Assembly: GCA_016795505.1 (NCBI GenBank)
Contig: JAEUHH010000032.1
Coordinates: 1-42,361 of the forward strand
Length of the DNA: 42,361 bases
Direction of reading: 5' to 3'
From: Verrucomicrobiales bacterium
GTDB taxonomy: Bacteria > Verrucomicrobiota > Verrucomicrobiia > Verrucomicrobiales > DEV007
Made by a program: the position numbers and the translations under genes. This document shows positions 1 to 36,747 of the stretch, piece by piece. Below the pieces are notes generated by a model. The model was not told the origin of the DNA and searched no databases. It saw only the letters and a program-made list of their open reading frames with translations. The first letter of the stretch is position 1; every line of letters starts with the position of its first letter.

Positions 1-42
1 CGGATCGTCCCAGCGCACTCCAGGCTCATCGTAATACGGCAT
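1..42 (-). CDS. N-terminus of an unidentified protein, cut by the left window edge
   Basis: On the minus strand an ATG at 42 opens 14 codons to the window edge, reading MPYYDEPGVRWDDP. The codons look natural and no stop interrupts them. Upstream there is only a weak GGAAA-like ribosome site. The family is not recognised from so few residues. The 21-bp dyad array at 263-514 lies upstream of this start, so it could be in its control region. It could also be a chance open stretch. Confidence 0.4.
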   Translation of the reverse strand, partial: MPYYDEPGVRWDDP

Positions 43-262
43 GATTTCCGGGGAAGTTGTTCCCGGCCATCTCAGAAAAAAATCCGCCGTCTGCCAAGCC
101 TTTTTTTCAAAAAAACGCGACCGCTCATCATTTTTTTCCACTCCCGGCGCCCCGCCCATCCAACCGGCGATCAGGAACTGGCTTGTTTCCAGTAAATACA
201 AAAAATAAAGAAAAATGCCGTTTTATGGTGAAAAATCGACGATTCCCTTTCCGGAAACGACA

Positions 263-514
263 TTTCCGGAAAGGGGAACGCCGTTTCCGCTCCCGGAAAG
301 CTCGTTTCCGGCGACGGAATCCACCTTTCCGTTTCCGGAAACCGCGTTTCCGGAAACGGAAAATGCGATTCCCCAAACGGAAATCCCGTTTCCGTGATCG
401 GAAACGCCATTCCGGTCAGTCGAATTCGGCTTTCCGTCCCCGGAAGCGCCCTTTCCGGAGACGGAATTGTCGCTTCTGGAAGTGGAAACGCCCTTTCCGG
501 CCGGCGCCCATCCG
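263..514. repeat. 21-bp tandem dyad array, 12 units
   Basis: Twelve units follow each other at exactly 21 bp, starting at 263, 284, 305, 326, 347, 368, 389, 410, 431, 452, 473 and 494. The consensus is TTTCCGNNNNCGGAA followed by about six variable bases, so most units hold an inverted pair TTTCCG/CGGAA around a 4-bp centre. A partial unit starts at 248. Units at 368, 410, 473 and 494 are the most decayed. Since 21 is a multiple of three, all frames stay open and give heptad pseudo-proteins on both strands. I read it as non-coding. Confidence 0.85.
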
Positions 515-592
515 GCGGGCGGGGTGGGAGTGAATCGAAAGTGGGGCGAAAGTCGGATCGCGCGATCTGGGGCTGGCTGGGCTGGCGCTCAG

Positions 593-1159
593 TCAATCGC
601 GGGGACCCGATTCTGCCTCTGTCTTGTTCGGTGCGACGAACTTGAAGAACTCCGATGCTGTGATCCCATTGGCTACGGACGGCTCCCAATTCTTTTGGGC
701 GGTGAGCTCGATATACCAGGACTCAGTTCGCTCCATGCCGGCATCCGAGTAAACCATGATCGATCCTCGACCATTTGATGCGGACTTCGAACTGAACCAT
801 ACGGCGATTGTCTCGGGGCATTGCTGATCAAAATACCGTCTCAGGTTCTCCTCACTTCGGATCCGCTTGTGAAGAACGTCAAAACTTGAATCGAAGACGT
901 ATCCAGATTCTTCCTTCGTCCAAGAACACTCTGAATCGACTCTTGATGGCACGAATGGAGGGATTACCAATCTCCCACGACCTACCCCGAAGGCTCCGAG
1001 CACCTTGCCGGCGAATCCTCGCCACTTCTCACCGAACCAATTGTCGATTCGGATCACCCTCAGCGTTCCCGGCGCTTCCCGCCGCACAACCGCTTCAATC
1101 ACTGCGCGAACGATTTCGATAAACCGATCATCGTCGTCAGTTGTGGTATTGATGCGCAT
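593..1159 (-). CDS. hypothetical protein paired with an NlpC/P60 gene
   Basis: This reads 188 residues from ATG 1159; an in-frame GTG at 1192 would add 11 residues, and neither start has a clear ribosome site. The family is not recognised. The sequence is soluble-looking, with no signal peptide or membrane segment: an acidic TTTDDDDRF start, a mixed alpha/beta middle and a conserved-looking stretch around WFGEKWRGFAGK. Only a short gap separates it from the upstream NlpC/P60 gene on the same strand, so the two are probably cotranscribed. Both are visibly AT-richer than their neighbours, suggesting joint acquisition. An immunity or accessory role for the hydrolase is possible but unproven. Confidence 0.7.
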   Translation of the reverse strand: MRINTTTDDDDRFIEIVRAVIEAVVRREAPGTLRVIRIDNWFGEKWRGFAGKVLGAFGVGRGRLVIPPFVPSRVDSECSWTKEESGYVFDSSFDVLHKRIRSEENLRRYFDQQCPETIAVWFSSKSASNGRGSIMVYSDAGMERTESWYIELTAQKNWEPSVANGITASEFFKFVAPNKTEAESGPRD

Positions 1160-1217
1160 GGAGGTTTTTGGCAGAACGTCGAGCGCTGGCACCTGCTACT
1201 GGGAGTGCCGCGTCGCA

Positions 1218-1256
1218 ACAGGGTTAAAGGTTGAAATCAAGAGGGTCATTTCGACT
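1218..1256. repeat. degenerate copy of the 22-bp ACAGGGT repeat
   Basis: ACAGGGT at 1218 is followed exactly 22 bp later by AGAGGGT at 1240, the spacing seen in the better copies at 2298, 23861 and 42160. The ATCGG core has decayed. It overlaps the 3' end of the NlpC/P60 gene, whose stop codon is at 1246-1248. The assignment rests on spacing and the heptamers alone. Confidence 0.35.
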
Positions 1257-2016
1257 CGGGGCGGGTAGCCGGTTGTCCACCACCGTCTTGTTCGCTTTTG
1301 TTTTTGTTTTGTGCGAGGAGTTGCCAGCGATGCGTTGTGACTGGTGCGCCAAACCAGCCGTTGTCATCCGTGCGGCCATCTAGAGATGCCACCGCTCCGA
1401 TACCAGGATCCGCTTGAATCCACTGACCATCACCCGCGTAGGCGAGAACATGAATTCCACTCGTGGTCACGGCCAAGTCTCCCGGCACCAACGATGCGTA
1501 GTCCATCTTCTGAATCGTCCCACTCGTTCCAATCGGGCTGGTGTAACTCCGATACCCTTCACCAAGCGCCTTTGCGCTGGCATCAAACCACCACTGCTCG
1601 ATGTATGCGCGAAACGCTTGTCCGTTAAAGTGCTTGATCCCGTATGCCAGTAGTGCATCCCGAAAGGCGCGTCTAGGCAACCCTGAGCAATCAATCCCAC
1701 GGGAACTCTCGCCTCCCCAAAAATACTTCGTGCCCTCGAACTCGCTCATCCGCCGAACGTAATCCTGCCTCAACTCTTCTGGATCGATCTCACCACTCGG
1801 CAGAATGAATGGTATCACCACAAGGAATGGGAACATCAAAGCGATAATCCTCAAAGGCTTGCGCTTCCACCCAAGAATCGTGAATCCGATCCACGCTCCG
1901 ACAATGCAACCCAAGACTGCAAGCTTCAGGATCTTGCTATTAACCGGATTGAGCGGGATCACGAAGATTCCAGCAATGGCACCGAGCGCGAGAATCAGTA
2001 TAAGGCGTCTCCACAT
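1246..2016 (-). CDS. membrane-anchored NlpC/P60-family cysteine hydrolase
   Basis: A 256-residue protein. Residues 1-75 hold about three hydrophobic segments (roughly 4-22, 29-48, 56-73) ending in a short anchor, followed by a papain-like NlpC/P60 domain. The catalytic cysteine is Cys110 in GIDCSGL, the histidine is His189 in SGIHVLAY, and a polar third residue is likely in WIQADPG (Gln201 or Asp203). These proteins usually cut peptidoglycan stem peptides. The N-terminal multi-pass anchor is unusual for a housekeeping endopeptidase, which normally has a signal peptide and SH3 domains. Base composition is lower in GC than the surrounding genes. The downstream gene is probably in the same transcript. 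Confidence 0.8.
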   Translation of the reverse strand: MWRRLILILALGAIAGIFVIPLNPVNSKILKLAVLGCIVGAWIGFTILGWKRKPLRIIALMFPFLVVIPFILPSGEIDPEELRQDYVRRMSEFEGTKYFWGGESSRGIDCSGLPRRAFRDALLAYGIKHFNGQAFRAYIEQWWFDASAKALGEGYRSYTSPIGTSGTIQKMDYASLVPGDLAVTTSGIHVLAYAGDGQWIQADPGIGAVASLDGRTDDNGWFGAPVTTHRWQLLAQNKNKSEQDGGGQPATRPESK

Positions 2017-3847: not shown

Positions 3848-3975
3848 GGCGGGTGGGTCGTGGGGGTGGGGAATCGGAATCGGCCGGCTGAGTGGGAGGA
3901 AGGCAGGACGGATGGACGGTAGAGCGATCGGGAGGGTTGGCAACCGGCGGGTGGGGCGGGGATGGGCGCTAAAGC

Positions 3976-4750
3976 TGGAAAGGAGAAGGAATGCCCACGG
4001 AAGGCACGGAATGTCACGGAAGGATTGGGGGCTTTGACGGGATCTTGGAGACTCGCTTTTTCGGGCCGTTTGATCGTTTTTTCAGTCGGCTCTTTGTTCG
4101 TGGGGCTCCAATTGCAGGGGCTTCCGGATTGAGCACGAAGATCTGGATGGTGGGGGATCTCCAGCAGATTCAGGGAGGCCAGCAGATTGGGAGTTGGAAA
4201 AATCTGCTGGCTTGCCTGAATCTGCTGGAAGCTTGGAAAGAAAAGGGAAGGCCCACGGATGGCACGGAATGTCACGGAAGGGGGAGGGCTTTGAAGGGAT
4301 ACTGGAGAGCTCGCTTTTTCGGGGCGCTTGTTCGTTTTTCCAATCGGTTCTTTGTTCGTGGGGCTCCAATTGCAGGGGCTTCGGGATTGAGCACGACGAT
4401 CTGGAGGTGCGGGATCTCCAGCAGATTCAGGGAGGCCAGCAGATTGGGAGTCGGAAGAAATCTGCTGGCTTGCCTGAATCTGCTGGAAGCCTGGAAAGGA
4501 GAAGGAATGCCCACGGAAGGCACGGAATGTCACGGAAGGATTGGGGGCTTTGACGGGATCCTGGAGAACTCGCTTTTTCGGGCCGTTTGATCGTTTTTTT
4601 CAGTCGGTTCTTTGTTCGTGGGGCTCCAATTGCAGGGGCTTCCGGATTGAACACGACGATCTGGATGGCGCGGGATCTCCAGCAGATTCAGGGAGGCCAG
4701 CAGATTGGGAGTTGGAAAAATCTGCTGGCTTCCCTGAATCTGCTGGAAGT
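3976..4750 (+). repeat. 258-bp tandem repeat, three units, each with a long hairpin
   Basis: Equivalent points GCCCACGG occur at 3993, 4251 and 4509, exactly 258 bp apart, and the array spans about three full units. Each unit holds GGCACGGAATGTCACGGAAG, a T-rich part (CTCGCTTTTTCGGG) and a hairpin whose 29-bp arms pair in 27-28 positions: 4160-4188 with 4201-4229, 4417-4445 with 4459-4487, 4678-4706 with 4719-4747. Loops are 12-13 nt. Open frames in it are repeat translations, not genes. It separates the ABC permease from apbE, both on the minus strand. Confidence 0.9.
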
Positions 4751-29016: not shown

Positions 29017-29547
29017 TTTTTCTGGCTTGCTCGATTTTTTTTGAGGGGCGCGTTGATGCTGGCGCCCTGGGGAGCGGGTTCCCGCTTGGTCACAAAGGCG
29101 GTGGATACGGCAAGGAATAGAGGATTTCCCTCTTGTTGCCTTGCCTGATGTGCCTCCAGCGCGGTTTTTTTCGTGGCTTTTCCTCTTTTTGTCGGAGCGA
29201 AAAGGGGCGCGAACGGATCCGTCCGGGAGTGGAAAAGCGGTCCCTCCGGGGGGCACTTTGGCGGAAAAGTTTGGACTTCCGAAGGTTCCCGCAGTCCCAT
29301 GCCGGAATTGGGCGGTTGCGGAGCGGCCAAAATTCGCTTTCATCGACGGGAAATTGGTCTTGACCAAAACGCGACTTATTGCTGAAACTGCCGCTTTAAC
29401 GCCATTTTTCCGCCTGATTTTGACCACCTTGCCGACCGAACAGCCTATGCGATGGCCGAATCTCCCCTCCGCGGGGGTGGGAGATCCGGTTTTTTGTGTG
29501 GGTGAATGACGGTCGATTTTCCCTTTTTGAGTAGTTACCCAATCGCC
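29017..29547. other. intergenic region ahead of the giant adhesin gene
   Basis: About 530 bp with T-rich runs near 29030-29045 and 29165-29185 (possible terminators of the preceding gene, without good stems). TTGACC boxes at about 29358 and 29420 could be -35 elements. The open frame covering 29141-29509 has no family features. Nothing firm beyond this is visible. Confidence 0.4.
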
Positions 29548-32500
29548 ATGAAAACGCTCACATCCTCCCTGCGCCGTAGCCAGACGCTCCAGAAGTCGCT
29601 GCTCGCGCTGACTTTTCCCGGCTTGGGTTTGCTTCCGATGCCGCTGTTGGCGAATCCCAGTGGCGGGGTGGTCGTGAATGGTGTGGCGGAGATCGGGGAT
29701 GGCTTGGGCGGGCATCTGATCATCAATCAGGGGAGCGACAAGGCGATCATCAACTGGCAGGATTTCTCGATCGGGGCGGGGGAGATCACCCAGTTCATCC
29801 AACCGGGATCGGGCTCGGCCACGCTGAACCGGGTCGTGTCCGGCAATCCCTCGGCCATCCACGGGGCCTTGCAGGCGAACGGCAAGATCTTCGTCATCAA
29901 CCCGAATGGCATCATGGTCGGTCCCAGTGGTTCGATCGACGTGGCCGGCCTGGTGCTGTCGACGCTCGATGTGAGCGACGCGGAGTTCATGGCAGGGGGC
30001 GACATGGTTTTCCGCGGCAACAGTAGCGCGGGTGTCTCGAATTTTGGCCGGATCAATGCGATCGGCGGCGATGTGTTTCTGATCGGCAAGACGGTGACGA
30101 ATGCCGGGGCCATCACGGCCAGCGGCACGGTCGGTCTGGCGGCCGGCGAAGAGGTGCTGATCACGGCCAACCCTGACGCGAACGGCGAGCGCGTTTTCGT
30201 GAAGCCGTCGGGCAGCGGCGGAGTAAGCAATGGCGTTACCAACACGGGCACGATCGAGGGCTCGGCGGTGGAGTTGAAGGCTCACGGCAATCTCTATGCG
30301 CTGGCGATCAACAATTCCGGCTCGATCCGGGCTACCGGGGCCTCGGCCAGCGGCGGGAGGGTCTTTTTGCGCGCTCCGGGTGGTCGGGTGGACAATTCCG
30401 GCTCCATCGCCGCCACGGTTCCGGGCGGTAATGGCGGGCGCATTCTCATCGAAGGCGCGATCGTCAATGCCGGAGGAACGATCGATGCCGGCGCGACGAC
30501 CCAACAGGGTCGGGGCGGAGAAGTAACCCTGTTGGGTGAGCAGATCAATGTGCCGAACGGAGCGCGGATTTCGGCCGATGGCGGCACCGGCGGCACGGTT
30601 CGGATCGGCGGATTGGCGGGCGAGACCCAGGCGACGTCGATTTCCGTGGGCAGCGGCGCGCGGGTCAGCGCGGACGGTTCGGCGGGCAATGGCGGCAGTG
30701 TTTCGATCCTCGGCGGGCTGAATTCGGCCGTGACGGTCGGCGGCAATGTGAGCGCGAATGGTGCGGATGGCTTTTCGGCTGGGACGGTTTCGGTAAACGG
30801 AGCCGCAGTCGGTCTGGCCCAAGGTGGGGCCCTGTCCGCTTCGGGCGGTACGGGTGGCGCGGTGGCTCTGACAGCGGCGGACTCGCTGAACATCGATGGC
30901 ACGGTCGAAGCGATGGGGCGCGAGGCGGTGGGTGGTCTGGTGACGGCCAAAGCCGACGGCAATCTGTCGGTGGGCAGTTCCGGAGCGATCAACACGGGTG
31001 GTCAGACCAGCGGCGGCTTGGTGGTGGTCGATTCGGACAACGGCACGACCAAAATTGCCGGGACGGTGAGTGCCACCGGGACGACTGGTGCGGGTGGTGA
31101 AGTCCGGGTGACCGGTCCGGCCATCGAAGTGCTCGGCGGTGCCACGCTCAATGCCTCCGGCGAGACGGCCGGTGGTGCTTTGCGCGTGGGCGGCGGGGTG
31201 CAGGGGGCCGACGCCTCGATGGCGAATGCCACGACGACGACGGTGGCCAATGGAGCGACGCTGAAGGCGGATGGCATTGGCAATGATTCGACTGGCGGTT
31301 CGGTGGTGGTGTGGGCCGATGGCGATACCGATTTCCGCGGCTCCATTTCGGCCCAGGGCGGTCAACAGGGAGGTTTTGTGGAAGTTTCCGGCAAGCAAAC
31401 GCTCCTGTTCGATGGCTCTGTGGATACCACGGACCTGAATGGTGGTGCGGGCACGCTGCTGCTCGACCCGACGAACATCACGGTCAACACGGCCGCCTCC
31501 GGTGCCAACAACATCCAGAACACCGCCCTCCAAGCGGCTCTGGCGGCCAACAATGTGGTGATCTCCACCCAGAGCGCGGGTGCTGATGCCGGCTGGATCA
31601 GTGTCGAGGCGGATGTGAACTGGAACTCCGCCTTCAGCCTGACCCTGCTGGCTGAGGACAGCATCTACATCGCCCGCGACGTCCGGAATGCCGGAACCGG
31701 CAACGTGAATCTGCTGGCGGGCTGGGATTCGGCCAATTTCTCCTTCACCGACATCGGTGGCAGCGGCACGGCTTCCACAACGCCCTTCGGAGTCCTCGCG
31801 GCGGGCGATGTCGACATGGCTACGGCTTTCGGCAGTCCCGCGGCATTCGGGAACAACAATGGCAGCATTTTCATCGGCCGGAATCAGGCGGGGGCTCAGG
31901 GAAATGGGGTCGAGGTCGGCAGCCGCCTGGGCGGGACCAACGCGATTGGGTATGGCCTGACCTTGGTCGGAAACGATGCCACGGCCGACGGCTTTGCCCA
32001 ACTCGGCGTGCGACCGGTCGCCGGGGCGACCACCGCCACCGGTGACATCCGGGTGAACCTGAAGGCCGGCGGCCTGACGATGGAGGGCGGCAATGCCAGC
32101 GGTTCCTACACCCAGATCGGTCATGGCGGTCTGGGGTCGGCTGCGACGGCTATCGACAGCGACATCACGGTGGAATTCCTCGAATTGGGTGACGTGTCGA
32201 TCCAGGGCGGTGCGGCGGCCAACTCCTATGCGCAGATCGGTAATGGCGGCTCGGGTGTCGGTGGCACCAAGGATGGCGCGGTGATGATGACCCAGTTCCT
32301 CAATTTCAATCTCGCCGCGGGGAATGCGGTCGGTTCCTATGCCCAAGTCGGGCATGGAGGCTTCAATGGAGGTGGCGTGATCGGTGGCACCACTCTCGCG
32401 GACATCACTCTGCTTGGTACTGCCAACAGTCTCGCCACCATCAGCGGGGCGGGTGGCAACGACGCCTATGCCCTGATCGGCAATGGCGGCAGCGGAAGCA

Positions 32501-35500
32501 ACGGCGCCAAATCGGGCTCGACGATCTTCGATGCCGCATCGGTCACTCTGAATGCAGGCAGTTTGGACCGGAGCTTTGCCCAGATCGGCTCCGGTGGCTT
32601 TGGCGCGACCGGGAATGTGACAGGCGATACGCTGGTCAATTTGGTGAACACCTCGGCTGGCGCGGTCAATCTGAACGCCGGTGCCGGCGCGGGTGCCTAT
32701 GCCCAGATCGGGGCGGGAGGCAGTGGCGCGACTGGCAGCCATACTTCCAATACGCTGGTGGCATCGGCCGCGACAGCGTCGGACATTTCTCTCAACGCCG
32801 GCGGCGGCGGCACGGGCGCCTTTGTCCAGATCGGGGCTGGCGGCCTGAATGTCGACGGGACCCTGATCGGGGATACGTCGGTGATCACGTTGGGTAATGT
32901 GACCCTCACGGCGGGAGGAACCACGGATACCTATGCCCAGATCGGCTTGGGTGGTTCGGATGCCGATGGCAACCAGTCGGGAGCCACCCTGGTGCAGGGC
33001 GAGGCGATCCAGATGACCAGCGGAGCCGGCAATGGGGCCTACACACAGGTTGGCAGCGGCGGCTTGAACTCCAGTGGCAACAAGCAGGGTGACAGTTCCG
33101 TCTTCGGTGCGTCGATCCTGGCCAGTGCGGGCACTGGCTCGGGTGCCTATTCCCAGATTGGCAATGGTGGGGCTGCCTCCGGCGGCGCGGGTGCGGTGAT
33201 GTCGGGCAATGTGTCGGCTTCGGCCACCAGTGGCAGCGTGGTGCTGCAGGGTGGCGGGGTGGCGAACGCCTACGTGCAGGTCGGACATGGTGGGGTGGAC
33301 TCCAATTCCGCAACCCAATCGGGTGATGTCTCGGTGACGGCCGACAGCGGCAACGTGGAACTGCTGGCTGGCACAGCCAACGATGCCTTTGCCCAGATCG
33401 GCCATGGTGGCAATCGCAGCACGGCGACTTCGTCGCTCGGCCTGGCGGGTGAGCGGGTCACGGTGTTTGCGAACGTCGATGTCATCATGACGGCTTCGAA
33501 TGCCGGAGTGGCAGCGGCTTCCCGGATTGGTCATGGCGGTCATTTGGTGACGACACCCGCCCTGAACGGCGATGTGGAAGTGCTGGCCGGGGAGAATCTG
33601 ACGATGACTGCTGGAGGTGCCGATATTGCCTATGTGCAGATCGGGCTCGGGGGTGCCGGCGTGACGGGTACGAAGACCGGGTCGGTCTCGGCTGATGCCG
33701 GGTCAAATCTGACTCTGAGCGCGGGATCTGGCACGGGTGCATTTGCGCAGGTGGGCAGCGGTGGTGGCTTTTCGCAGGGCGGAGCGGCTTCGAATGGTGA
33801 TATCATCGGCGATGTGAGCGCCTCGGCTCTCACGGGAACGGCATCGATCCTGGCCGGCACGGGCGTCAATTCGTTCGCCCAGATCGGCGCGGGTGGCTTG
33901 AGTGTGAACGGCATCAAGACCAGCGGCACGACCTTGGACGCCGGGGACATCGTCGTGACAGCGGGATCGGACGATGCGACCTACGCGATGGTTGGCGCAG
34001 GTGGTCTCGGCGCGGGAGGGAACATTACAGGAGACACCACCGCCAACGCCAGCGTCGCCGGCGTCAGTGTGACGACAGGCACGGGTGATCGCGCATTCGC
34101 CCAGATCGGGGCAGGAGGGGACTCCGCTGACGGCACGCACACCACCGCCACCTCGGTGCTGGCGGTGGGAGACGTGGTCATCGATGCGAGCGCCGCCACC
34201 CTGAACAGTTACGCCCAGATCGGTGCCGGCGGAAACGATCTGGATGGAGCGATCACGGGAGCGACCAATGTGATCACGTTCGGCAATGTGACCCTGACCA
34301 GTGGATCGGTGGCGGGGGCCTACACGCAGATTGGCTCCGGCGGTTTCGACAGCGATGGGCTCCGTGACGGCGGCACCACCGTTCAGGGGACGAATATTTC
34401 TCTCACTGCCGGCAGCGGTGCGAGCGCCTACTCGATGATCGGTATGGGCGGCACCACGACGAGCGGCAGCAAGACGGGCGACACGACTGTGACCGGTGAT
34501 GCCGTCACGGTCACGGCTGGTGACGGAGATTTCTCCTTCGCCCAGATCGGCAATGGCGGCTATTCCAGTGGTGGATTGGGCACGACCTTCTCTGGATTCA
34601 CGACCGTCACGGCGGCAGTGGGTGATGTCGCAGTTCAGGGCGGCGCCGGGTCGGTAGCCTATGCCCAGATCGGCAATGGCGGCGTGACAAACACGGCGAC
34701 CAATCTGCTTGGCGGCGCATTTGTCTCCGCTTTCGGAAATGTCAATGTTGCGGCGGGTGATGGCGGCTCGGCCAGTGCCCAGATCGGCAACGGTGGCTCA
34801 GGAGCAGTCAATCAGGTGATCGGAGATCCTGGCGACCGCATCGATGTGTTGGCCGGCGGCAACATCACCGTCTCGGGCTCCGACGTGGGCGATTTCAGCA
34901 CTGCTCAGATCGGCCATGGCGGACGGATTGTCACCTCCTTGAGCATGGATGCCGATGTGTTCGTGCAGGCCGGTGGAACGGTGACGGTTGAGGGTGGCGA
35001 TGCCAATCAGGCGGCTGCCCAGATCGGTCACGGCGGCCCGGGAGCCAGCGGAGACAAGGGTGGTCTGATTTTTGTTGAGTCTTTTGGCTCCGATGTGGTG
35101 GTGAATCGTGGCGCCGGACAGAATGCCTATGGCAAAATCGGGCATGGCGACCAGATGTTCACCGGCACTGGCAGTGGCGCCGGATCCGGCAGTGGCACGG
35201 GCGCCCTGGTGGGTGACATCCAGGTCTCTGCCGGCAACAATGTCAGCCTCGATCAGGGCATGATCGGTCATGCTGACACCCGTTTTGCGGGAGTGGGGCC
35301 GGCCACCGGAAATACTTTCGTGGCCGCGAGTCGGATCGATCCCATCGCGGGAACCGGAGCCGTGGTGGCTAACTCCGGTTCCGTCTTTGAGTCGGGTGGA
35401 GCGGATGAATTGCGTTTTTACATGCCTCTCCGCGCGAATAACCAGATGCTTGCCGGCACGCTATTGAATGGCACGAATTACCTCGGTGCCAAGGTGGACC

Positions 35501-36747
35501 CGCTCAATCAGCAGGCCGACGAGTTCGTCATCCATCAACTGCAAAATGGCACTCTGGTGGAAGTGCTGACTCCGAGTGAGCATGGCAATCTGGTTGGTTC
35601 GGACGTGACCTTCCCCGATACGGCGAACTACAGCACCGCGCTGGGTAATTACAGCCTCTACTACGACACCATCGTGGTCCTTCAGGCTGGGCCTCCCGGT
35701 ACTCCCGGTGGTGGTGCCGGCGGAGCGGGAGGCGCCGGCGGGGCCGGTGGTGCGGGCGGAGCTGGCGGAGCTGGAGCGGGCGGTGCGGCTGGCAGTGCCG
35801 GCGGCGGCACGCCCACGCCGACAGTCATCGGCGTCGGTCCCGACGGGAAACCGATCGTGGTGGTGGCGGTGCCGGGTGAGGAGTTGCCTTTGATCATTAC
35901 CAGCGAAGATGGAGTGGTGGGCTTTGCCCCCGGACGGCTCTATCCTGGTTCTCCCTTCTTCCCGGTTGGCTTTTACATGGAAGGTGAGTTGGACAACCGC
36001 TTCTACGACGACCAGCACCCGATTATCGTCGACTACGCTCGTCAGGGCGATGTCATCTACCGTGACCTGCTGGAAGGCTTCGATGCCGGATACCAGACCC
36101 GGACTGAAGGGTGGAGCAGCTACAATGTCTTTGGTGGTGATGGCGTGACTGTGCCCTTTATCTATGTGCCCGAGGAAGAGGCCGGGGATGACGATTTGCG
36201 CCGCGGCTTGGAGCAAATGCAGGGAGATTTCGAGCGCGCGGCCGATACCGCCGGTGGCGTTCCTCCCGCAACCGATGGGGCAGCTCAACCCGCCGTGGAA
36301 CTGCCGTCCGCCCCGCCGGCTCCGGCTGGTGCGATGGATGGCGGTGCCGCCGATCCGTTTGGTGCTCCGCCGGCTGCGCCGGCGGCAGGCTCTGATCCGT
36401 TTGGCGCTCCGCCGGCCGCACCCGCGGCTCCGGCTGCACCGGCGGCAGGCTCTGATCCGTTTGGCGCTCCGCCGGCCGCACCTGCGGCTCCGGCTGCACC
36501 GGCGGCAGGCTCTGATCCGTTTGGTGCTCCGCCGGCTGCGCCCCCCGCGGCTCCGGCTGCTCCGGCGGCAGGCTCTGACCCGTTTGGCGCTCCGCCGGCC
36601 GCACCTGCGGCTCCGGCTGCTCCGGCGGCAGGCTCTGATCCGTTTGGTGCTCCGCCGGCCGCACCTGCGGCTCCGGCTGCTCCGGCGGCAGGCTCTGATC
36701 CGTTTGGTGCTCCGCCGGCCGCGCCCGCGACGCCTCCGCAGCAGTGA
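29548..36747 (+). CDS. giant filamentous-hemagglutinin-like secreted repeat protein (TpsA-like)
   Basis: 2399 residues from ATG 29548; an in-frame ATG at 29506 would add 14 residues that spoil the signal (MKTLTSSLRRSQTLQKS, then LLALTFPGLGLLPMPLLA). Domains: TPS/haemagg_act (about 34-210) with IINWQDFSIGAGEITQF, the secretion-type NPNG in KIFVINPNGIMVG; beta-helix with Gly-rich SGG repeats (210-620); LLLDPTNITVN near 638; about 27 repeats of 36-45 residues with QIGxGG core (851-1871, for example YAQIGNGG, FAQIGSGG); a Gly/Ala linker (2050-2089); an unrecognised globular part (2091-2237); and a Pro/Ala tail (2269-2399). It is probably a surface adhesin exported by two-partner secretion, though no TpsB is in the window. 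A 22-bp dispersed repeat pair lies inside at 30504-30540. Confidence 0.9.
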   Translation: MKTLTSSLRRSQTLQKSLLALTFPGLGLLPMPLLANPSGGVVVNGVAEIGDGLGGHLIINQGSDKAIINWQDFSIGAGEITQFIQPGSGSATLNRVVSGNPSAIHGALQANGKIFVINPNGIMVGPSGSIDVAGLVLSTLDVSDAEFMAGGDMVFRGNSSAGVSNFGRINAIGGDVFLIGKTVTNAGAITASGTVGLAAGEEVLITANPDANGERVFVKPSGSGGVSNGVTNTGTIEGSAVELKAHGNLYALAINNSGSIRATGASASGGRVFLRAPGGRVDNSGSIAATVPGGNGGRILIEGAIVNAGGTIDAGATTQQGRGGEVTLLGEQINVPNGARISADGGTGGTVRIGGLAGETQATSISVGSGARVSADGSAGNGGSVSILGGLNSAVTVGGNVSANGADGFSAGTVSVNGAAVGLAQGGALSASGGTGGAVALTAADSLNIDGTVEAMGREAVGGLVTAKADGNLSVGSSGAINTGGQTSGGLVVVDSDNGTTKIAGTVSATGTTGAGGEVRVTGPAIEVLGGATLNASGETAGGALRVGGGVQGADASMANATTTTVANGATLKADGIGNDSTGGSVVVWADGDTDFRGSISAQGGQQGGFVEVSGKQTLLFDGSVDTTDLNGGAGTLLLDPTNITVNTAASGANNIQNTALQAALAANNVVISTQSAGADAGWISVEADVNWNSAFSLTLLAEDSIYIARDVRNAGTGNVNLLAGWDSANFSFTDIGGSGTASTTPFGVLAAGDVDMATAFGSPAAFGNNNGSIFIGRNQAGAQGNGVEVGSRLGGTNAIGYGLTLVGNDATADGFAQLGVRPVAGATTATGDIRVNLKAGGLTMEGGNASGSYTQIGHGGLGSAATAIDSDITVEFLELGDVSIQGGAAANSYAQIGNGGSGVGGTKDGAVMMTQFLNFNLAAGNAVGSYAQVGHGGFNGGGVIGGTTLADITLLGTANSLATISGAGGNDAYALIGNGGSGSNGAKSGSTIFDAASVTLNAGSLDRSFAQIGSGGFGATGNVTGDTLVNLVNTSAGAVNLNAGAGAGAYAQIGAGGSGATGSHTSNTLVASAATASDISLNAGGGGTGAFVQIGAGGLNVDGTLIGDTSVITLGNVTLTAGGTTDTYAQIGLGGSDADGNQSGATLVQGEAIQMTSGAGNGAYTQVGSGGLNSSGNKQGDSSVFGASILASAGTGSGAYSQIGNGGAASGGAGAVMSGNVSASATSGSVVLQGGGVANAYVQVGHGGVDSNSATQSGDVSVTADSGNVELLAGTANDAFAQIGHGGNRSTATSSLGLAGERVTVFANVDVIMTASNAGVAAASRIGHGGHLVTTPALNGDVEVLAGENLTMTAGGADIAYVQIGLGGAGVTGTKTGSVSADAGSNLTLSAGSGTGAFAQVGSGGGFSQGGAASNGDIIGDVSASALTGTASILAGTGVNSFAQIGAGGLSVNGIKTSGTTLDAGDIVVTAGSDDATYAMVGAGGLGAGGNITGDTTANASVAGVSVTTGTGDRAFAQIGAGGDSADGTHTTATSVLAVGDVVIDASAATLNSYAQIGAGGNDLDGAITGATNVITFGNVTLTSGSVAGAYTQIGSGGFDSDGLRDGGTTVQGTNISLTAGSGASAYSMIGMGGTTTSGSKTGDTTVTGDAVTVTAGDGDFSFAQIGNGGYSSGGLGTTFSGFTTVTAAVGDVAVQGGAGSVAYAQIGNGGVTNTATNLLGGAFVSAFGNVNVAAGDGGSASAQIGNGGSGAVNQVIGDPGDRIDVLAGGNITVSGSDVGDFSTAQIGHGGRIVTSLSMDADVFVQAGGTVTVEGGDANQAAAQIGHGGPGASGDKGGLIFVESFGSDVVVNRGAGQNAYGKIGHGDQMFTGTGSGAGSGSGTGALVGDIQVSAGNNVSLDQGMIGHADTRFAGVGPATGNTFVAASRIDPIAGTGAVVANSGSVFESGGADELRFYMPLRANNQMLAGTLLNGTNYLGAKVDPLNQQADEFVIHQLQNGTLVEVLTPSEHGNLVGSDVTFPDTANYSTALGNYSLYYDTIVVLQAGPPGTPGGGAGGAGGAGGAGGAGGAGGAGAGGAAGSAGGGTPTPTVIGVGPDGKPIVVVAVPGEELPLIITSEDGVVGFAPGRLYPGSPFFPVGFYMEGELDNRFYDDQHPIIVDYARQGDVIYRDLLEGFDAGYQTRTEGWSSYNVFGGDGVTVPFIYVPEEEAGDDDLRRGLEQMQGDFERAADTAGGVPPATDGAAQPAVELPSAPPAPAGAMDGGAADPFGAPPAAPAAGSDPFGAPPAAPAAPAAPAAGSDPFGAPPAAPAAPAAPAAGSDPFGAPPAAPPAAPAAPAAGSDPFGAPPAAPAAPAAPAAGSDPFGAPPAAPAAPAAPAAGSDPFGAPPAAPATPPQQ
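30504..30540. repeat. 22-bp repeat pair inside the adhesin gene
   Basis: ACAGGGT at 30504 and its reverse complement ACCCTGT at 30526 are 22 bp apart, as in the intergenic clusters. The flanks extend it to CCAACAGGGT and ACCCTGTTGG. The ATCGG core is not kept. In frame it encodes TTQQGRGGEVTLLGEQ, which also fits the normal beta-helix pattern, so it may be a chance match. Confidence 0.4.
32110..35160 (+). repeat. about 27 in-frame QIGxGG repeats with higher-order duplication
   Basis: Each repeat spans roughly 108-135 bp and carries a core such as YAQIGNGG, FAQIGAGG or YTQVGSGG. The order of variants recurs: TSVITLGNVTLTAGG near 32875 and TNVITFGNVTLTSGS near 34264 are in register with neighbours on both sides (TKDGAV/TKTGSV, NVTGDT/NITGDT, GSHTSNT/GTHTTAT). 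The DNA offset is about 1.39-1.41 kb, so a block of about 11-12 repeats appears to have been duplicated and has since diverged. Confidence 0.85.
36352..36740 (+). repeat. 60-bp tandem repeat encoding a Pro/Ala tail
   Basis: GATCCGTTTGG-type starts lie at 36352, 36394, 36454, 36514, 36577, 36637 and 36697, that is units of 42, 60, 60, 63, 60 and 60 bp. They encode seven DPFGAPPAAP elements joined by APAAPAAGS. DNA identity between units is very high, so length variation by slippage is likely. Confidence 0.9.

Follow-up and report, generated by a model that had tools for sequence, protein, structure and literature searches.

Arrays of 21-bp-phased palindromic units upstream of a multi-copy gene family suggest a gene-linked DNA element of a type not yet described

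Plasmid iterons are tandem sites spaced by about two helical turns, with a replicon-specific sequence, found together with an origin and a Rep gene. Multi-site operators, parC and parS carry phased inverted half-sites in tandem, with one dedicated protein and one sequence. REP/BIME elements are dispersed intergenic copies of one palindrome family, and CRISPR loci consist of identical palindromic tandem repeats between long unique spacers. Direct repeats of the heptamer TAACTGA form intergenic tandem arrays near start codons in Beggiatoaceae, Cyanobacteria and Bacteroidetes and are reported as one fixed 7-bp sequence with no pattern in downstream gene functions and an unknown regulator (PMC4679880).

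Here we describe an array at one end of the window, that is, the whole 42,361-nucleotide stretch of DNA analysed, which forms the start of contig C85 of the 6.5-Mb genome G000. Arrays of this type resemble the TAACTGA repeats in being intergenic, tandem, closely upstream of starts and present in distant phyla, but differ from them and from STRR heptamers in consisting of locus-private 21-bp dyads tied to a single gene family, not of a fixed heptamer. They share with iterons the tandem two-turn spacing and a sequence specific to each replicon or locus; in contrast, no Rep-like neighbour was seen to recur beside the family arrays in an all-against-all comparison of neighbouring ORFs at 98 loci, which returned no initiator-like or recombinase-like group. 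Tandem phased inverted half-sites are common to operators, parC, parS and the present arrays, whereas here many unrelated array sequences occur inside one genome and the units differ between loci, unlike the one conserved multi-copy sequence of parS/ParB. The intergenic palindromes recall REP/BIME, but the array units are private to each locus and not dispersed copies; the tandem palindromic repeats recall CRISPR, but long unique spacers are absent and units diverge along the array. We found no description of such a gene-linked element in the open-access literature, and an account elsewhere is possible. The features of the locus are as follows.

242..514, strand not applicable: 21-bp dyad array, 12-13 units in a single register, consensus TTTCCG-N4-CGGAA(A)-N5/6.
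43..241, minus strand: spacer of about 200 bp from array to start codon, in which no family-wide motif was found.
1..42, minus strand: opening 14 codons (MPYYDEPGVRWDDP) of the family gene downstream, which runs off the contig.
1..572, strand not applicable: duplicated block, array included; second copy at C120:7555-8126, 96% identical.

The initial annotation had described twelve 21-bp-phased dyad units upstream of the leftmost gene, and both points held: the register is unbroken by insertion or deletion from 242 to about 499, Tandem Repeats Finder (TRF) reports period 21 (score 84) and period 42 (score 119) with 0% indels, and the array stands about 200 bp before the start of the truncated family gene (ATG at 42, minus strand). 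Its statement that most units hold TTTCCG-N4-CGGAA is true of a slim majority only. The exact dyad is found in 7 of 12 units (those starting at 263, 284 and so on to 494; span 263-514), namely at 284, 305, 326, 347, 389, 431 and 452, while the units at 242, 263, 368 and 473 are degenerate and those at 410 and 494 retain a half-site or less. Allowing at most 2 mismatches to TTTCCG-N4-CGGAAA, the window contains 14 matches, 10 of them inside the array, against 2.69 expected from shuffles of the window, none of 100 of which reached 14. Column conservation within the array is uneven (p ~0.003), the best 8-pair dyad columns having a mean conservation of 0.78 as compared to 0.55 for the other columns. 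Rfam gave 9 weak matches in window positions 1-1300, none at the gathering score. Elsewhere in the window, a 258-bp unit stands in three tandem copies with 89% matches (3975-4749), and positions 29506-36747 (plus strand) encode a very large protein that contains many repeats of the QIGxGG type and a tail rich in proline and alanine, and that we take to be filamentous-haemagglutinin-like.

The gene behind the array is a member of an unnamed multi-copy family, whose proteins combine a variable N-terminal part with a C-terminal fibronectin type III (fn3) domain. Its 14 residues are all identical to those of a homologue from the same genus, G001:C402 (90% DNA identity over 42 bp), which is complete at 248 residues and has a weak Pfam fn3 match. 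Further homologues lie in G000 itself (C97, C108, C76, C71 and C15), in G001, G003 and G034, and, less strongly matched, in another six genomes of the family. An AlphaFold2 model of the L046 protein, built from a two-sequence alignment (mean pLDDT 76.5), comprises helices at residues 11-110 and an fn3 sandwich at 131-231; the latter aligns to fn3 domains with a best Z of 9.5 (rmsd 2.2, 84 residues), and the A5 profile matches titin and designed fn3 chains, so that the C-terminal part of the family is predicted to adopt the fn3 fold. Pfam fn3 itself scored above cut-off for one of three fn3 candidates and for neither of two proteins in a second set; that one protein excepted, no Pfam or NCBIfam model reached its cut-off in the family proteins given. 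The helical N-terminal part modelled alone gave a pLDDT of 89.8. Foldseek returned no PDB match for it at E<=0.001 and nothing informative, and the best match on a second look was a designed helix bundle (Z 6.9). PADLOC anti-phage defence profiles found no defence family for the five proteins given. A collagen-like gene, with seven or more Gly-X-X repeats, lies downstream in 7 of 96 loci of the window's class.

The region upstream of G001:C402 is also 21-periodic, in a different sequence: identity over 470 bp is 0.38 for both lag 21 and lag 42 and 0.33 for lag 63, compared with 0.19-0.34 for the other lags. We followed this association with profile A2, built from eight family members, which matched 36 of 384 sampled genomes of the window's class, many of them more than once, and so 24 of 172 genera; from its gene content we take this class to be verrucomicrobial. 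The 98 loci analysed comprise 9 from family searches, 29 from the A2 search and 60 more A2 matches; the set leaves out weaker or contig-end A2 matches, and two of its members, L210 and L211, are identical. Lags of 5-69 were scored in 63-base windows within 1 kb of the gene, three loci (L250 among them) being too short upstream and two too short downstream. Upstream, 71 of 95 testable loci scored best at lag 21, 42 or 63, 7 at 22, 44 or 66 and 4 at another lag, with no array above threshold in 13. Downstream, none of 96 loci showed a 21- or 22-series lag (other lags 15, none 81), so that at 21-series lags the two sides differ with a Fisher p of 6e-32; near-threshold downstream scores at lag 42 or 21 occur at L183 (37 of 63), L229 (35) and L252 (35). 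With one fixed threshold, a 21-series array lies at most 1 kb upstream in 66 of 95 family loci as compared to 11 of 458 other G000 genes (Fisher 2e-50), these controls coming from a 727-kb sample that was in part selected around repeats; one array is common to several of the 11 positives.

Across 116 family loci with enough sequence, at least 40 of 63 bases matched at lag 21 in 78, at 42 in 76, at 63 in 66 and at 22 in 8. In the family-rich genome G054, four of seven family loci have a 21-series array, while 140 kb of its other sequence has none. G043 and G187, of the same order and without a family match, gave no noncoding and one coding array in 260 kb; this split is crude, since the mask put many true arrays in the coding class, and we do not rely on it. 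The initial annotation had named, as a refutation, an array unique to this strain; for the array type this fails, at least one such array being present in 31 of 37 family-bearing genomes and, in addition, in two Treponema MAGs.

Units upstream of family genes include TCCGGGGCTACGGAAACTCTT (G000 C97), CCCAAAGGGCTTTCGTTGACT (G034 C383), TTGGGA-N3-CCCAA with 7-bp linkers of variable sequence (G003 C78) and the TTTTC-GTCC-CGGAAAA type (G001:C110), which is near the window's dyad. At G000:C108 an HTH gene takes the upstream position, with a 22-series array farther up. A neighbouring XRE regulator was considered and rejected: a two-sequence XRE profile matched only 4 of the 98 loci, one of them the profile's own source, and among the neighbouring ORFs compared no DNA-binding gene was seen to recur beside the array. 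Searched as a pattern in 57 genomes, the window's motif gave scattered matches in 15, of which G001:C110 was later found in a family array; such a search finds family arrays poorly because the motif is private to its locus.

The same arrangement occurs in very distant bacteria. A double-dyad scan of public genomes returned 16 stretches, chance or coding pairs included, and led to two Prevotellaceae MAGs in which arrays lie directly upstream of genes of 232 and 231 residues. These MAGs hold 42 (in a 2.3-Mb genome) and 11 family matches, many of them contig-end fragments. Among 23 Prevotellaceae loci, 4 had too little upstream sequence, and 18 of the 19 testable ones carry a 21-bp array (16 of 17 without the two entry loci); the remaining one, L260, is a heptamer array. 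Units vary from locus to locus, the two entry loci sharing the half-sites used to find them. Downstream, lag 21 appears in one of 19 loci (L261, 52 of 63), and heptamer repeats at 38 or more of 63 follow 9 of 19 family genes (for example L254, L277 and L257). Homology of the proteins was assessed with hhalign against a class profile free of Prevotellaceae rows (97%, E 1.2e-10, 162 columns) and again with three Prevotellaceae loci removed on both sides (96.5%, E 9e-10); the first-round class profile directly finds G464 L263 (7e-9), L261 and L259, as well as Treponema L341 (3e-5). Two Treponema MAGs, with 19 and 11 family matches, were reached via motif matches lacking a family gene (L032, which sits in what looks like a phage gene, and L040). 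The search returned 19 Treponema loci, 4 of them with less than 40 bp upstream; 14 of the other 15 have a 21-bp array, L330 being the exception; at L334 a lag-66 stretch farther up scores 60 as compared to 58 for the 21-bp array, and lag 21 appears downstream as well (43 of 63). An upstream 21-bp array is thus found at most testable family members in the window's class and in the two Prevotellaceae and two Treponema MAGs.

In the window's class, 63 delineated arrays have a median of 12 units (range 4-21), a median column identity of 0.63 and a median extent of -399 to -125 from the matched gene start, and 40 of the 63 show an excess of dyads over column-permuted units at p<=1/60. Conservation was compared in 80 arrays (78 of the family, the window's and that of C119, with both members of an identical pair included). 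In 61 of these the dyad columns exceed the remaining ones in conservation, with a mean difference between arms and rest of +0.092 against 0.0004 under column permutation, and columns are unevenly conserved at p<0.01 in 40; the arms-versus-rest effect is moderate and was computed with the units of one array treated as unrelated. The period is nearly constant, with a minority at 22, and each locus has a sequence of its own; the palindromic units conserve their arms better than their linkers, and the arrays are non-coding. The strict lack of indels was considered as proof of selection on phase and rejected, as lenient TRF settings gave 0.12 indels per mismatch and the control was poor.

Consensus units of 82 arrays, compared at best rotation and strand, share a mean of 9.9 of 21 bases between loci (95th percentile 12). 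Eight pairs of proteins at 70-90% identity, both members coming from the same genome in six, have 10-13 array bases in common (mean 11.1), so the likeness of arrays between paralogues at 70-84% identity appears little above chance and the sequences private. Only the identical duplicate shares 21 of 21; some between-genome pairs with proteins 57-67% identical share 15-18. Sharing of at least 14 bases does not differ significantly within (1 of 33 pairs) and between genomes (10 of 68; p 0.097). As close paralogues have so few array bases in common, the comparison indicates that arrays are replaced faster than the genes they precede.

The 572-bp block is a recent duplication. The first 141 bp of its C85 and C120 copies are identical, and both contigs terminate at the same base inside the gene. 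Their 22 differences comprise 7 in the array, 6 in positions 1-241 and 9 in 515-572, and 5 of the 7 array differences fall in arm columns, so that this recent divergence, a tiny sample, does not support protection of the dyad. The proposal of the initial annotation that dyads are kept while outer bases vary is in this way borne out across the arrays and not by the duplicate pair. The exact 16-bp dyad occurs at nine places in G000: four in C85, three in its C120 duplicate, one in another 21-bp array (C119) and one elsewhere. With eight of nine places inside 21-bp arrays, the dyad is not a dispersed palindrome but private, and no genome-wide motif; a genome-wide operator or parS can be rejected, and the suggested parS-like or organisational role is not supported. 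What survives of that interpretation is phased dyads upstream of a gene, with their arms kept.

Other repeats were noticed in the course of this work. The C119 array (L047:5201-5399), with TTTTCGGTACCGGAAA dyads, lies between thrC and a convergent gene, has no family gene beside it and adjoins a GGATCTT/GGATTTT heptamer array. The single remaining dyad copy, TTTCCGATACCGGAAA, is at G000:C91:30691 (L350), and a 42-bp tandem repeat lies no more than 300 bp away. A 22-bp repeat family (about CCGATCAAACCCTGTTTGATCG, which is also a dyad) is scattered across G000 in short arrays between genes, for example at L110:6204-6314, L083:9801-9904 and L092:10573-10653; TRF listed 33 period-22 rows in the 727-kb sample, most of the CCGATCAAACCCTGTTTGATCG type by eye. 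At L087:9358-9704 a 22-bp array has about 15 units around GGGGAAGGGTCTACCCTGGCTA. In Prevotellaceae (G463:C1), L286:6945-7273 consists of 15.7 copies of TGTGTAGCTACACATTTCAAT, a long palindrome repeating every 21 bp, and stands about 200 bp before a lipoprotein-like gene outside the family (6747 to 5638, minus strand). Two uncultured records carry 21-bp arrays of TTCCGGTTTCGGAAAAGTATA (L031:1738-1989 and L042:725-1240), standing between a uvrB-like gene and a large secreted-looking gene.

Taken together, the fixed period, the dyads, the upstream position and the better-kept arms fit a cis element whose DNA sites all face the same side of the helix. We give an even chance to the reading in which each array is a locus-private cis element controlling its downstream gene through phased dyads, and infer that such control would be exerted as double-stranded DNA with a protein-binding step. 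Dyads two helical turns apart would face one side of the DNA; a dimeric protein, for which the family gene product itself is a candidate, could load cooperatively along the array and set expression of the one adjacent gene; private sequences would keep paralogues independent, and tandem amplification of a local 21-bp seed would make new arrays in place of old ones. The chief difficulty of this DNA-site reading is the private sequences, together with the lack of a visible cognate binding protein. Also against it are the arm changes in the duplicate pair (5 of 7), the 13 of 95 loci without an array and the 4 with another lag, the HTH gene at G000:C108, the indels under lenient TRF settings, the near-threshold or 21-lag downstream regions (L183, L229, L252, L334 and L261) and downstream heptamers in Prevotellaceae, the 21-bp arrays away from the family (G000 C119 and Prevotellaceae), and a promoter box found before some arrays.

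That promoter box bears on a serious rival to the binding reading, somewhat unlikely in our judgement, in which the array is a transcribed leader, a string of RNA hairpins within the 5' UTR that sets mRNA stability, attenuation or translation. In 3 of 13 Prevotellaceae loci TAnnTTTG, which we take to be the Bacteroidota promoter motif, starts no more than 25 bp before the array (0.16 expected, P 6e-4), which would put the array inside the transcript; 14 of 19 loci were taken, one lacking upstream sequence, the 25-bp limit was chosen after looking, and one of the three is the L260 heptamer array. Prevotellaceae arrays stop 3-94 bp before the matched gene start, the window's array folds as RNA at -150 kcal/mol as compared to -111 in shuffles (z -8.4), and private sequences would be explained, since any palindrome would do. 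RNA hairpins, however, have no need of a fixed 21-nt step, and arrays of the window's class end a median of 125 bp before the matched region, with no promoter located there; k-mer counts in the array-to-gene spacers of that class gave no shared promoter motif. Broken pairs, moreover, are not compensated, double changes being in no excess (175 observed, 164 expected) beside 1713 single changes. Together with the better-kept arms, this lends moderate support to the view that dyad bases behave like sites read by half-site, unlike those of a conserved RNA helix.

We consider it improbable that the arrays are neutral products of a replication-slippage hot spot that makes 21-22-bp intergenic arrays, the family genes just lying in tolerant places. 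Hairpin-forming seeds would expand more readily, arrays of 21 bp, 22 bp and heptamers stand beside other genes too in G000 and Prevotellaceae, heptamers follow nearly half of the Prevotellaceae family genes (9 of 19), array turnover outpaces gene turnover, and the C85/C120 differences show no protection of the dyad. Yet slippage leaves unexplained why arrays of the window's class stand on one side of the genes (71 of 95 upstream, 0 of 96 downstream), and it sits poorly with the empty 140 kb of G054 beside its 4 of 7 family loci, with the stronger conservation of arms over linkers in 61 of 80 arrays, and with the same array-gene association in very distant bacteria.

IntI recombinase uses attC sites, and by analogy the dyads could serve a structure-recognising recombinase as a private address for gene movement or exchange. 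The genes are multi-copy and dispersed, one recent duplication took its array along, and the dyads have no fixed sequence, but the all-against-all ORF comparison brought up no recombinase that recurs beside the arrays. A plasmid collection held no relative of two family proteins, and among viral contigs the fn3 part matched two loci and the L046 protein none; we therefore rejected a plasmid- or phage-borne element, and regard a role in movement as very improbable. A coding heptapeptide repeat (21 nt being 7 codons) is rejected: although reading frames across the window's array are open, mod-3 variation at p<0.05 is found in just 1 of 78 arrays, as expected of arrays that do not code.

A more specific form of the DNA-site reading can be put forward tentatively, as a possibility with perhaps one chance in a handful or slightly better. 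Each family copy would hold its own two-turn dyad array, renewed from new seeds by dedicated amplification and read by a geometry-sensing or co-evolving factor, possibly the encoded protein, so that paralogues would be independently controlled. Very distant bacteria share the element's period and position, yet its sequence is replaced from one locus to another, which is unlike familiar operators, iterons and repeats. The array marks a large uncharacterised gene family and offers a handle on its control or spread, and it makes testable a general question: can selection maintain the layout of the sites in a binding array whose sequence is free to change?
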